A stretch of 42,163 nt of DNA from Calditrichota bacterium (lineage in GTDB: Bacteria; Calditrichota; Calditrichia; JAJRVZ01): contig JAJRVZ010000247.1 in NCBI GenBank assembly GCA_024277055.1, forward strand, positions 1-42,163, given 5' to 3'. Shown one piece after another: positions 7,256-42,163 of the stretch. Each line of letters begins with the position of its first letter. Within the stretch, counting starts at the first letter, position 1. The notes below the pieces were generated by a model that had not been told where the DNA came from, searched no databases, and saw only the letters and a program-made list of their open reading frames with translations. The translations under genes were made by a program, and so were the position numbers.

Positions 7256-7732
7256 TCAGCTTTCGCTCTTTTCCTTTATAACAACCGAACTGGCCGTAAA
7301 AGAATAGGACGGCTTTTCTTCCTTAACTTCGGCGCCCTGTGCGGCCGTTTCTTCTTCAACATGTTTGTCGGTTTTCGTGCTGAAAATTCCCTGTACGGAA
7401 ACCAGGTTGCCGGCGCCGTCTTTTGGAACGAAAAAAGCATAATCTTTAAACCGTACGGTGATATCATATTCACCTTGTTTCAGTTTCAGCCAGCATCCCT
7501 TTTTCTGGCAAACATCGATTATCTGCCCGTCCAGCCGAACTTCTTTGCCTTCGTACTGTTCCGGGTGCTGGTACAGTTCCGCCAGCGACGTTGCGGCGTT
7601 CATTGTCATTTCCGCACCGTAGGTTTTTACACTGGTCTCGGTTTTCTGCTGTGTTTCCTCCTTTTTTCCACAGGAAAATACCAGCAGAACCGTCAGAATG
7701 AATACACTTGCTGTCATCCATTTTGATTTCAT
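7256..7732 (-). CDS. DUF4920-like lipoprotein
   Basis: 158 aa; lipobox LLVFSCGKK; LAELYQHPEQYEGKEVRLDGQIIDVCQKKGCWLKL typical of DUF4920. Confidence 0.8.
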   Translation of the reverse strand: MKSKWMTASVFILTVLLVFSCGKKEETQQKTETSVKTYGAEMTMNAATSLAELYQHPEQYEGKEVRLDGQIIDVCQKKGCWLKLKQGEYDITVRFKDYAFFVPKDGAGNLVSVQGIFSTKTDKHVEEETAAQGAEVKEEKPSYSFTASSVVIKEKSES

Positions 7733-8142
7733 TTTGTACTCCTTTTTTTAAATTTTGGATTTAAGATAAAAAACATATAAATGCCCGTGACCGACAAAAC
7801 GATCAGGGCCGCGGCGATAAAATCGTAATAATATACGGCATATTCTCCGAAAAAGATACCGGCATGCAGGTCGTACACGACCCATGAAAGGGGAACACTG
7901 CCGCTGTCGTCTTTATAAAGCCCGAGCGTTCCCTGTTGCTTGCGGATTTCGATCAGGCGCTGCTGATAACTGTCCGGCAGCCAGGCGGTACTGATGCGCA
8001 TACGATCCATAAATGAAAAGTCATTTTTATGCTCCAGTAAAATTCCGGTCGCAGAAATAATGATAATAACCAGTGCCGAAAGGGTACTGAGCCAGCGCCA
8101 GTAGCCGAAAGCAAAAATATGAACTTTACGCCATTTTTTCAT
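7729..8142 (-). CDS. PepSY-associated TM helix domain protein
   Basis: Start moved to internal Met (MKKWRKVHIFAFGYWRWLSTLSALVIIIISATGILLEHKNDF); two TM helices; 4-nt overlap with the DUF4920 gene. Confidence 0.7.
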   Translation of the reverse strand: MKKWRKVHIFAFGYWRWLSTLSALVIIIISATGILLEHKNDFSFMDRMRISTAWLPDSYQQRLIEIRKQQGTLGLYKDDSGSVPLSWVVYDLHAGIFFGEYAVYYYDFIAAALIVLSVTGIYMFFILNPKFKKRSTK

Positions 8143-8358
8143 CGTGTATAAATTCCCGGTGGTCAGCAAATTAAAGTCAAAAGACTTAGCCTTTGCAGAT
8201 TTCAAAATCAATAGGTAAAAAAAGGGAACTCTGCATTTGGGAAATTTGAAATTTTTTACTATTTTTTCCATACTTACCCGACTCGAAGAAAATAAACATA
8301 CTTGCCCGATTTTATTGAAACAAAGTAAATGTGCGATTGAAGGGCGGAAACGAAATAA

Positions 8359-9195
8359 ATGGATAAGTCGTTACATGATATAATCGAACGAGCCTTACTG
8401 GAAGACATCGGGCGCGGAGATATTACTACGGACGCGACCATCGATCAGGGGCGGCGGGGCAGCGCCAGAATAATTGCCAAACAGGAGGCGGTTATTGCCG
8501 GGATGGTTGTTGCCGACCAGGTTTTCAGAAATATTGACGGTCAGCTACGAATTAAAAAGAATTTCATGCCGGGTGACCGGGTTACAGCCGGTACGGTGGT
8601 TATGAACCTTTCCGGCCGTGTCGCCTCGATGCTGAAGGCTGAAAGAGTGGCACTGAATTTCCTGGGGCATTTGTCAGGCGTAGCCACACTAACCGCTTAT
8701 TTCGTAAAGCTGATCAAAGGAACCAAAGCGAAAATAACCGACACACGCAAAACCATGCCCCTGCTGCGCGTAATGGAAAAAGAGGCCGTTGTTGCAGGCG
8801 GCGGCGTGAACCATCGCATGGGTTTGTACGACCTGGTGCTGATCAAACAAAACCATATCCGCGCAGCCGGCAGCATCAAAAAAGCCGTTGAACAGACCAG
8901 GCATTTCATGATTCAAACCGGGATTTCCGCCAAAGTTGAAGTGGAGGCGTCAGAACTGAAGGATGTAAAAGACGCCCTGTTGTCAGGGGTTGACCGTATC
9001 ATGCTGACCAACATGGATACGGTACAAATGCATGCAGCGGTAAAACTAATCGACGGTGCAGCGGAAGTGGTGGCGACCGGCGAGGTGCATAGCAAAAACA
9101 TACGCGAAATCGCCGAAACCGGTGTTGATTATATTTCCGTCGACTCCATTACCAATTCGGTACCTTCAATGGAGTTTTCACTTTTGATCGATTGA
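8359..9195 (+). CDS. nadC: Nicotinate-nucleotide diphosphorylase (carboxylating)
   Basis: 278 aa; ALLEDIGRGDITTDA, KITDTRKTMPLLRVMEKEAVVAGGGVNHRMGLYD, VEVEASEL, DRIMLTNM. Confidence 0.97.
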   Translation: MDKSLHDIIERALLEDIGRGDITTDATIDQGRRGSARIIAKQEAVIAGMVVADQVFRNIDGQLRIKKNFMPGDRVTAGTVVMNLSGRVASMLKAERVALNFLGHLSGVATLTAYFVKLIKGTKAKITDTRKTMPLLRVMEKEAVVAGGGVNHRMGLYDLVLIKQNHIRAAGSIKKAVEQTRHFMIQTGISAKVEVEASELKDVKDALLSGVDRIMLTNMDTVQMHAAVKLIDGAAEVVATGEVHSKNIREIAETGVDYISVDSITNSVPSMEFSLLID

Positions 9196-38800: not shown

Positions 38801-38831
38801 TTGCATGAAAAGCCGCTGAATGATAAATTTT
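38801..38831 (+). promoter_or_regulatory. Candidate BMC operon promoter (TTGCAT-N17-TAAATT)
   Basis: TTG 38801-38803 and TAAATT 38824-38829, about 26 nt before the TTG start of the EutN-like gene. Confidence 0.45.
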
Positions 38832-38855: not shown

Positions 38856-39158
38856 TTGTTTTTAGGAAAAGTGATCGGGACGGTCTGGGCCACAAAAAAA
38901 TCCGATACCTGCGCCAACCTGCGCTTTCTCGTCGTTCATCCCCTTAATCTCAAAAAGGCGCCGTCCACCGATGTAGTGATCTGTGCCGACACGCTGGGCG
39001 CCGGTCCCGGCGAAACGGTGATCTGCGCTTACGGACACGCCGCACGCAAGGCCATTCACCCGGACGCCCCGGCGGAACTCAGCATCGAAGCGGCGGTTAT
39101 CGGTATCGTCGACCGCGTGGATATCGACGAGGACGCCTCGGACGGCAAAATAACATGA
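38856..39158 (+). CDS. eutN: EutN/CcmL-family BMC vertex (pentamer) protein
   Basis: TTG start with GGAG RBS 7 nt upstream: MFLGKVIGTVWATKKSDTCANLRFLVVHPLNLKK...VVICADTLGAGPGETVICAYGHAARKA...AAVIGIVDRVDI. Confidence 0.92.
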   Translation: MFLGKVIGTVWATKKSDTCANLRFLVVHPLNLKKAPSTDVVICADTLGAGPGETVICAYGHAARKAIHPDAPAELSIEAAVIGIVDRVDIDEDASDGKIT

Positions 39159-40465
39159 TTGATAGAATACGCAACGGGGGGGTTGTCGGTGCGGGAGGGG
39201 CCGGTTTTCCAACGCATATCAAACTGGATAATAAAGTTGATACGGTCATCGCCAATGGTGTGGAATGCGAACCGTTGCTGGCTAACGATAAATACCTGAT
39301 GACGCATCATGCCCGGGATATTATCGAAGGTCTGCTTCTGGCTCAACAGCAGACGGGGGCTGATCGGGCCGTTTTGGCCATTAAGGAAAAATATACCGCA
39401 GTAGAAGATAAACTCGAAGTTATTCTGCAGGAAGTCGGCGTCGATCTTTTTCTGATGCCCGATTATTATCCCGCCGGGGATGAACTGGAGATCATTTACG
39501 AAGTTACGAACCGCATCGTTCCGGCCGGCGGAATACCGGTGCAGGCAGGGGTGCTGGTACAGAACGTGGAAACACTGTTCAACAGTGCCCGCGCAGTGAA
39601 CGATGAACCGGTTACTCACCGCTTTTTAACCGTAAACGGGGCGGTGGAGGAGGGCGCTGTTGTACGTGCACCGATCGGCATCTCCTGCCGTGAAGTGCTG
39701 AATCAATTGTATCCCGGCAAGAGTTTTGATGGTTTGACCGTCACCACCGGCGGCGTGATGATGGGCGCCATCCACCGCGATTTTGATTTTCCGGTTACGA
39801 AAACCACGGGGGCGTTGCTGCTGCTGCCGGAGCATCACACCGTCGTGCTGCAGAAAAGCAGGCGCATTCGCAACGTCGTGCAGCAGGCCATGGCGTACTG
39901 TACTCAGTGCACCAAATGCAGCGATGCCTGTCCGCGCGATATGTTGGGACACACGGTAAAACCCCATCTGTCCATGCGCCGCGTGGCTAGTGGACTGAAT
40001 TACGAGGGGCAACCGTCCATCAACGCCTATGCCTGTTCGGAATGCGGCATCTGCGACCTGTACGCCTGTCCCATGGGATTGTACCCCCGGCGCGTCAACC
40101 GGGAACTGAAAGAAATAATGCGCGGGCAGGACGTACCGTTCGAAATCCAGCAAAAAGAATACCGTGTGCATCCGCTGCGAGAGAGCGCAAAGATTCCTTC
40201 CTACAATCTGAAAAAGAAATTGCAGTTACTGGATTATGACCGGGAAGTAACCCGTTTCGAAGATCTGAAAGCAAAAGAAGTTACCATTCCGCTGAAACAG
40301 CATATCGGTGCAGCGGCCAAATGTGTGGTAAAAGCCGGACAGAAAGTTGAAAAAGGTGAAAGGATTGGCGAAATTCGGGAAAATGAAATCGGCTCTACCA
40401 TTCATGCGTCCATCAGCGGCAGGGTGAAAGAGATTACGGGGGCTGCAGTACGGATTGTGGCATAG
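39155..40465 (+). CDS. pduS: PduS/RnfC-like Fe-S flavoprotein (SLBB, two 4Fe-4S clusters)
   Basis: GGVVGAGGAGFPTHIKL; ANGVECEPLLANDKYLM; CTQCTKCSDACP and CSECGICDLYACP; ATGA overlap with the eutN-like gene. Confidence 0.9.
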   Translation: MIDRIRNGGVVGAGGAGFPTHIKLDNKVDTVIANGVECEPLLANDKYLMTHHARDIIEGLLLAQQQTGADRAVLAIKEKYTAVEDKLEVILQEVGVDLFLMPDYYPAGDELEIIYEVTNRIVPAGGIPVQAGVLVQNVETLFNSARAVNDEPVTHRFLTVNGAVEEGAVVRAPIGISCREVLNQLYPGKSFDGLTVTTGGVMMGAIHRDFDFPVTKTTGALLLLPEHHTVVLQKSRRIRNVVQQAMAYCTQCTKCSDACPRDMLGHTVKPHLSMRRVASGLNYEGQPSINAYACSECGICDLYACPMGLYPRRVNRELKEIMRGQDVPFEIQQKEYRVHPLRESAKIPSYNLKKKLQLLDYDREVTRFEDLKAKEVTIPLKQHIGAAAKCVVKAGQKVEKGERIGEIRENEIGSTIHASISGRVKEITGAAVRIVA

Positions 40466-40523
40466 GTCGGTTAAATCCCGGGGAAGTTCGGAAGTCCACG
40501 GGGATTGACAACGAGGAGATTTA

Positions 40524-41069
40524 ATGCAGGCAATAGGATTACTGGAATACAACAGCATCGCCGCGGGAATCGAAGCGACCGATGAAATGATGAAAGCGGC
40601 ACAGGTGGACCTGCTGTTTGCCAAAGTGGTTTGTCCGGGAAAGTTTATCGGGCTGGTTGCCGGTGAAGTGGCTGCCGTAAAAAGCAGTATAGATGCCGGA
40701 AAAAAAACGGGCGGTATGTACGTGGTTGATGAATTCGTGCTGCCCAATCCGCACCCGGAAATTATCCCGGCCATGAATGCGGCTACGGTCATTGAGCAAT
40801 ACCAGGCACTGGGTGTAATCGAAACTTTTTCCGTGGCTTCAACCATCGTTGCCAGCGACGCTGCGGCTAAAACCGGGCTGGTAAACCTGATTGAAGTACG
40901 CCTTGCGGTGGGCATGGGCGGAAAGTCTTTTGTAACCATGACCGGGGAAGTGGCTTCCGTGCGCTCGGCGGTGGAAGCCGGCAATGCGGAGGCGAGCAGC
41001 CGCGGATTCCTGGTAAAATCCGTCGTCATCCCGCACCCGACCCGCGAACTGATTGAAGGATTAGTGTAG
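40524..41069 (+). CDS. pduT: PduT-like tandem-domain BMC shell protein (BMC-T) with candidate Fe-S ligand Cys
   Basis: Two BMC domains (AIGLLEYNSIAAGIEATDEMMKAAQVDLL; ALGVIETFSVASTIVASDAAAK); KVVCPGKFIGLVAGEV matches the PduT CPGK region. Confidence 0.93.
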   Translation: MQAIGLLEYNSIAAGIEATDEMMKAAQVDLLFAKVVCPGKFIGLVAGEVAAVKSSIDAGKKTGGMYVVDEFVLPNPHPEIIPAMNAATVIEQYQALGVIETFSVASTIVASDAAAKTGLVNLIEVRLAVGMGGKSFVTMTGEVASVRSAVEAGNAEASSRGFLVKSVVIPHPTRELIEGLV

Positions 41070-41073
41070 GTGC

Positions 41074-41104
41074 TTTGACAGGTTAACAGGATTAACCGGA
41101 TAAA
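41074..41104 (+). promoter_or_regulatory. GGATTAAC-type microrepeat with embedded -35-like TTGACA
   Basis: TTTGACAGGTTAACAGGATTAACCGGATAAAA between pduT-like and ACT genes; TTGACA-N18-GATAAA possible internal promoter. Confidence 0.3.
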
Positions 41105-41239
41105 AGATGAAAAACGAATCCCGGCTTTCAGGCAGGGATCACGATAAACGATAATAACCAACCCGGGGACTTCTCTCCGGGAACAGGTGTAGCTGATAAA
41201 ATCATGCGGACTTAGTCCACTAATGTAATTGAGGAAAAA

Positions 41240-41704
41240 ATGCCGGAACTATCAACCGAAAAAATCCGCGAGCTGGCCCGTGAGGCCGTTAAACAGCTGG
41301 GGCCGAAAGCCACGCCGGAGCTGGTGAATCGAGTAGTGCGCGAGGCCATGAAAAAGGTAAATGCAGAGCAGCAGCAACAGCCGGAAATTGACGAACACCA
41401 TCTTCCGAGTAATGAATCGCTGCGCGGCGGGGGTACCCGCATCATCGTAACCGCGTTCGGGAAAAACCACCCCGGAATATTGGCCGGAATTACCGGCGTG
41501 CTGGCCGATCATGACTGTGATATACTCGACCTGACACAGAAAATGCTGCAGGATTTCTTCACCATGATGCTGCTGGTTGACATCGGGAAGAGTTCCTGCA
41601 CCTTCGAAGAGCTGAAGCAGCGGATTATCGACCGCGGAGAAGAACTGGATCTGAAGGTCATCGTACAGCATGAAGAACTGTTTAACGCCATGCACCGGGT
41701 GTAG
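41240..41704 (+). CDS. ACT-domain protein (UPF0237-like) with N-terminal BMC encapsulation-peptide-like extension
   Basis: Residues about 66-154 TRIIVTAFGKNHPGILAGITGVLADHDCDILDLTQKMLQDFFTMMLLV...LFNAMHRV; extension LSTEKIRELAREAVKQLGPKATPELVNRVVREAMKKV plus Gln/Gly-rich linker; RBS gagg. Confidence 0.88.
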   Translation: MPELSTEKIRELAREAVKQLGPKATPELVNRVVREAMKKVNAEQQQQPEIDEHHLPSNESLRGGGTRIIVTAFGKNHPGILAGITGVLADHDCDILDLTQKMLQDFFTMMLLVDIGKSSCTFEELKQRIIDRGEELDLKVIVQHEELFNAMHRV

Positions 41705-41706
41705 CC

Positions 41707-42163
41707 ATGCCGTTTACCATTGAAGAAATTCTCGATACCATCCGCATGACCGAGGTGGAGCATTTTGACATTCGCACAACGACGCTCGGAATAAACCTCA
41801 AGGATTGTGTAAGTGACGATTTTAAAAAACTGCGCGCCAAGATTTACGATAAAGTATGCCGTGTCGCCGAAAAGCATGTAAAAGCAGCCGAGCAGGTGGA
41901 AATGGAATACGGTATTTACATTGCCAACAAGCGTATTTCAATCACCCCGCTGGCGCTGGTAGCCGATCACTGCTCGCAGAGCGAATTCGTCCGTCTGGCT
42001 GAAACGCTGGACGCCGCCGCCGATGAAGTCGGCGTGGATTTTCTGGCCGGGTTCAGTGCGCTGGTACAGAAGGGTTTCTCCAAAGGGGACCGGAATCTTA
42101 TCCGCGCAATTCCCGAAGCGCTGGCGGCAACCGAGCACATCTGTTCATCGGTAAACGTGGCCA
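41707..42163 (+). CDS. DUF711/UPF0210 family protein, N-terminal part (3' end outside window)
   Basis: ATG 3 nt after the ACT stop, open to the window end: EILDTIRMTEVEHFDIRTTTLGINLKDC...NKRISITPLALVADHC...EVGVDFLAGFSALVQKGFSKGDRNLIRAIPEALAATEHICSSVNVA; absent from the ORF track because no stop lies in the window. Confidence 0.88.
   Translation, partial: MPFTIEEILDTIRMTEVEHFDIRTTTLGINLKDCVSDDFKKLRAKIYDKVCRVAEKHVKAAEQVEMEYGIYIANKRISITPLALVADHCSQSEFVRLAETLDAAADEVGVDFLAGFSALVQKGFSKGDRNLIRAIPEALAATEHICSSVNVA

Follow-up and report, generated by a model that had tools for sequence, protein, structure and literature searches.

The operon that closes the analysed stretch of Calditrichota DNA is probably a satellite locus of a dispersed DeoC/aldehyde dehydrogenase (AldDH) metabolosome, to which it would add an ACT-DUF711 pair as accessory cargo. 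The pair is probably an overlooked cargo of this bacterial microcompartment (BMC), and not its main enzyme. The stretch (hereafter the window; 42,163 nucleotides) is the entire contig C192, one of the 386 contigs of a Calditrichota MAG that is 88.8% complete.

Gene content of the operon

The initial annotation described five contiguous, co-oriented genes, and all five open reading frames were recovered in place on the plus strand with Pfam matches above the curated cut-offs. The first (38856..39158) encodes a EutN/CcmL-type BMC-P vertex protein, a locus-specific paralogue (PF03319, 77.7 bits), which starts at the TTG at 38856 or possibly at an ATG at 38820. It is followed by a PduS-like flavin/Fe-S electron-transfer protein (39155..40465) with Complex1_51K, RnfC_N and Fer4 domains and the motif CTQCTKCSDAC, which is 39-42% identical to PduS of Calditrichota and Ignavibacteria BMC loci. 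The third gene (40524..41069) encodes a BMC-T shell protein of the PduT type, which has two BMC domains in tandem (153.6 bits) and shows 45-52% identity to PduT proteins; its CPG motif is also present in two of three relatives.

The ACT protein consists of an N-terminal extension (residues 1-45, 41240..41374), a linker (residues about 46-65, 41375..41434) and a UPF0237-type ACT domain (41435..41704), as evident from the ACT_6 (55 bits) and PRK00194 (93.6 bits, above cut-off) matches and from the related PDB entry 1ZPV. The last gene encodes DUF711/UPF0210, annotated as 'PFL family protein' (PF05167, 161.5 bits), of which the window holds only the first 152 codons (41707..42163), because C192 stops at 42163. 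As noted initially, diol dehydratase, ethanolamine lyase and aldehyde dehydrogenase are all missing from what can be seen of the operon.

The expected continuation of the operon past 42163 was found on contig C77 (2507 bp), which carries the rest of DUF711 (profile positions 175-412, at 1796-2506), a carbon-nitrogen (CN) hydrolase and the biotin carrier gene accB. The two DUF711 pieces score 161.5 and 378 bits, against about 600 bits for full-length relatives, and are separated by a gap of ~35 profile positions. The order DUF711-CN hydrolase-AccB is shared by relatives, which supports C192 and C77 as neighbours. There is also an in-frame TAG within DUF711 at the C77 edge (minus strand, near 2477), possibly an assembly-edge error.

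Conservation in Calditrichota and Ignavibacteria

A full-length match to the ACT protein, extension included, was obtained in 22 of 41 Calditrichota genomes, and DUF711 has the identical distribution, being confined to these 22. EutN lies upstream of ACT in every one of them (22/22), the CN hydrolase lies 3' of DUF711 in most of the 22 loci, and in many the locus is placed between nadD and accB. The EutN of this locus forms a separate clade with a support of 1.000 in a small tree. An accidental neighbourhood created by misassembly was rejected, as the gene order is repeated across 22 genomes. The window genome alone has PduS and PduT within the EutN-ACT-DUF711 operon; in the three relatives examined (G001, G010 and G021) the two genes lie outside it, and either adjoin AldDH or form a separate locus. 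The presence of PduS/PduT inside the window operon is a second, independent link of ACT-DUF711 to BMC genes.

Nine Calditrichota genomes have BMC-domain genes and no DUF711, one of them (G014, 76% complete) from a DUF711-bearing family. In G024, which is devoid of DUF711, the DeoC match falls inside a 471-residue ORF with an RpiB-like start (L128, 3704-5119), an apparent RpiB-DeoC fusion. In most of the other BMC-bearing genomes without DUF711, the DeoC match likewise falls in a long frame, the fusion having been read directly in G024 only. These long DeoC frames suggest two BMC types in Calditrichota, one of which is accompanied by DUF711. In G006 (98% complete), EutN, DeoC, ACT and DUF711 were found (L131, L132 and L041), and a search of the same genome returned no BMC-domain gene and no EutE-like AldDH.

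Of 149 sampled genomes of the class Ignavibacteria, 21 carry DUF711 and 56 carry BMC domains, and every DUF711-bearing genome belongs to the 56 (Fisher test without phylogenetic correction, p 7e-11). The Ignavibacteria ACT protein has a comparable N-terminal extension; neither EutN nor other shell genes adjoin the pair there, and EutN linkage as a universal rule is therefore ruled out. The co-occurrence of DUF711 with BMC may partly reflect common descent, and all ACT extensions constitute one homologous family. AldDH was recovered in 52 of the 56 BMC-bearing Ignavibacteria genomes, divergent in most of them. The divergent proteins are about 525-585 residues long (L239-L263), and most of those read end in a linker and a GISEEEVERIIREF-like helix, the form of a C-terminal tag.

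N-terminal extension of the ACT protein

The extension of ~45 residues is modelled by AlphaFold as two helices (6-23 and 26-45), followed by a low-confidence linker (pLDDT <50 at residues 46-51 and 54-57, with variable columns in alignment A1) and the ACT fold. In Firmicutes, the ACT proteins paired with DUF711 have an annotated length of 87-90 residues and no such extension.

The likeness of the extension to encapsulation peptides (EP) was scored with a profile of 19 AldDH N-terminal tags, applied to the N-terminal 60 residues of each of 1460 non-redundant ORFs from several genomes, the AldDH and DeoC families being left out. ACT proteins took ranks 2-16, which count as one family-level observation because one homologous family is counted many times. 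Rank 1 was an unassigned 125-residue ORF of G034 with the AldDH-like tag SKLSEEQIQQIARRVAENLG, probably an AldDH fragment. Many ACT proteins also ranked high with a DeoC-tag profile, though the separation was poorer than with the AldDH profile (AUC 0.943 vs 0.957). When the 66 ORFs on the examined contigs of the window genome were scored with 16 AldDH tags, none of them from that genome, its ACT protein was the best (15.9 bits), followed by DeoC (10.0) and the next ORF (6.5); the ACT score was reached by 0 of 2000 shuffles.

Taken together, the AlphaFold model and the profile score give the ACT N-terminus the form of an encapsulation peptide, i.e., a terminal amphipathic helix of 15-20 residues attached through a flexible linker. 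The extension is thus probably an encapsulation peptide, helical likeness over 20 residues not being proof. No tag was detected by the AldDH-EP profile on DUF711 or the CN hydrolase, and loading of DUF711 would therefore rest on a putative ACT-DUF711 contact. The earlier view that the pair is no accidental neighbour of the shell genes is upheld by the dedicated EutN paralogue that accompanies the pair in each of the 22 Calditrichota genomes, by BMC genes in 21/21 DUF711-bearing Ignavibacteria and by this encapsulation-peptide-like N-terminus.

Fold and distribution of DUF711

The likeness of DUF711 to a ribonucleotide reductase (RNR)-type barrel, noted in the initial annotation, was confirmed by a Foldseek search of its model, which retrieved 2HA9, with class III RNR next (E 1.8e-6), i.e., the ten-stranded α/β barrel of the RNR/glycyl-radical superfamily. 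Over 42 sequences, three cysteines are invariant (C33, C145 and C358, SP0239 numbering), and the list of conserved residues includes an RGG stretch near the C-terminus. DUF711 resembles class III RNR and glycyl-radical enzymes in fold, but differs in sequence (about 9% identity), and in SP0239 a radical glycine is not recognised (PMC4390871).

DUF711 shares 56-60% identity with the free-standing pneumococcal SP0239, and hence looks, on sequence grounds, recruited and not invented for the BMC. The Streptococcus pneumoniae pair SP0238/SP0239 (PDB 1ZPV, 2HA9) comprises homologous ACT and DUF711 proteins, the latter about 56% identical and with the same three cysteines; the pneumococcal ACT, unlike the one described here, is without the N-terminal extension. 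DUF711 is also present in 5 of 14 control genomes, all Gram-positive or archaeal, and a search of these five returned no BMC domains.

The rest of the compartment

The BMC genes of the window genome are spread over four contigs (C192, C9, C107 and C261). There are four BMC-domain matches, namely two BMC-H on C261 and the one two-domain BMC-T of the window, and four EutN genes, on C9, C107 (a pair) and C192; the genome has both the PF00936 and the PF03319 shell proteins that mark a shell-forming genome. No BMC-P triplet was found in this incomplete assembly, in which two EutN genes are paired on C107 and C9 and C192 have one each.

Contig C9 (3914 bp) carries, in order, a phosphomutase, EutN, DeoC and a pyrimidine nucleoside phosphorylase. 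DeoC (PF01791, 75.6 bits) adjoins EutN and has the N-terminus MSSITKEIIEDIITQVLRES, a tag-like helix. On C107, a DeoB-like phosphopentomutase (Pfam Metalloenzyme) lies beside the two EutN genes. No RpiB (pfam02502) was detected on the examined stretches of C9 (only 3914 bp), C107, C192 and C261. After the BMC-H pair on C261 come genes for a VWA protein and for an AAA ATPase with a weak AAA_5 match (L008, 4929-8482), an arrangement that may parallel the CbbO/CbbQ pair of carboxysomes. The second BMC-H (L008, 5262-5756) has a C-terminal extension of ~80 residues, and a similar extended BMC-H occurs beside a plain BMC-H in Ignavibacteria.

In relatives, the core BMC locus comprises BMC-H, a ParA-like ATPase, a EutQ-like protein, Pta, a second BMC-H, a tagged EutE-like AldDH, EutJ, PduS and PduT. 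Within one such locus (L115), the ParA-like ATPase is encoded at 7488-8258 and the small EutQ-like protein, with a helix-loop-helix tail, at 8277-8606. A EutE-like AldDH is present in 26 of the 41 Calditrichota genomes. In the window genome no EutE-like (acylating) AldDH was recovered at E<=1e-60, and with the genome 88.8% complete, its BMC may be without the enzyme or have a divergent one, or the assembly may have missed it.

Proposed role of ACT-DUF711

The following scheme would account for these observations. EutN and PduT as shell proteins, and PduS in electron transfer, would serve a BMC whose other parts are encoded on C261, C107 and C9. In this compartment, DeoC would cleave deoxyribose-5-phosphate to give glyceraldehyde-3-phosphate and acetaldehyde, and aldehyde dehydrogenase together with Pta would convert the acetaldehyde to acetyl phosphate. 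ACT-DUF711 may be an older two-gene unit of enzyme and regulator, free-standing in Firmicutes and recruited here as accessory cargo. The N-terminal helices of ACT would act as the encapsulation peptide and bring DUF711 into the lumen, where its RNR-like barrel with three invariant cysteines would carry out a putative cysteine-dependent step, and ACT would putatively sense a small ligand. Tentatively, and with some doubt, a small regulatory ACT protein may thus serve as a tagged adaptor through which an enzyme of RNR fold is loaded, which would represent a new cargo class and, for the MIC/FRAG BMCs in Calditrichota and Ignavibacteria, a new chemistry.

It is conceivable, if unlikely, that ACT-DUF711 is cytosolic, with its N-terminal helices binding DUF711 or another protein, and that EutN is in the operon only through a shared growth-state need. 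The closeness of DUF711 to its free-standing pneumococcal homologue, the retention of the ACT extension in Ignavibacteria without shell-gene neighbours, and the housekeeping neighbours NadD and AccB are all consistent with such an arrangement. However, the free-standing DUF711 of Firmicutes has partners without the extension, which is therefore not needed for ACT-DUF711 pairing in general; the likeness of the extension to AldDH encapsulation peptides exceeds that of nearly all other ORFs, and BMC genes accompany DUF711 in all 21 of the Ignavibacteria genomes sampled that carry it.

The initial annotation took the pair as the metabolic core of an undescribed BMC, and with the CN hydrolase included it would be the signature cargo. 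The strict link to a dedicated EutN, the tag-like N-terminus and the failure of a search at E<=1e-60 to find AldDH in the window genome speak for this assignment, which is nevertheless very improbable. The window genome encodes the tagged DeoC beside another EutN on C9, and the single locus of relatives combines the tagged EutE-like AldDH with Pta, EutJ, PduS and PduT, so that DUF711 as metabolic core is rejected; the wide occurrence of the DUF711 family without a BMC link in the control genomes argues in the same direction. Least probable of all is shared ancestry as the sole cause of the co-occurrence (an ancestor with BMC and ACT-DUF711, both then retained or lost together by chance), which fits the sampling of two related lineages and Fisher tests that ignore phylogeny, but leaves aside the 22/22 EutN linkage, the placement of PduS/PduT and the tag-like sequence, all independent of the presence/absence pattern.

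Relation to described microcompartments

A satellite locus with accessory ACT-DUF711 cargo can be set against three described BMC types. The MIC locus of Caldithrix abyssi, with AldDH, pta and PduS, is called a metabolosome with an incomplete core in the available text of Axen et al. 2014 (PMC4207490). It belongs to the same phylum, and the core loci of the relatives studied here carry the same genes; in contrast, a tagged DeoC and EutN-ACT-DUF711 are tied to the BMC here and go unmentioned for MIC in that text, and the window genome has PduS/PduT in the ACT-DUF711 operon.

The SPU BMC, as far as described in the available text of Sutter et al. 2021 (PMC8217296), is similar in the DeoC-type pfam01791 aldolase of the window genome and the AldDH of its relatives. 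It differs in that the window genome has dispersed loci and ACT-DUF711, with no RpiB partner detected on the stretches examined; the RpiB-DeoC-like ORF of G024 is nearer to a true SPU. The same text describes FRAG BMCs of Ignavibacteriae and related phyla as having scattered shell genes and no obvious signature enzyme. The window genome likewise has shell genes at several places, but it has a EutN pair and single EutNs instead of a BMC-P triplet, with ACT-DUF711 added as candidate cargo. A literature search, confined to texts without their supplements, returned no mention of DUF711/PF05167 or of an ACT domain together with microcompartments.

Significance

In the available text of both catalogues (PMC4207490, PMC8217296), no signature enzyme is listed for the BMCs of Caldithrix or for the FRAG type of Ignavibacteria, which makes a cargo hypothesis for them testable. 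Two candidates are nominated here, the tagged DeoC for Calditrichota and the tagged ACT-DUF711 pair for both groups. The pair also offers a first cellular context for DUF711, a widespread family and a structural cousin of the anaerobic ribonucleotide reductase. Caldithrix abyssi is in culture, and both cargo nominations and the proposed context of DUF711 are therefore open to experiment.
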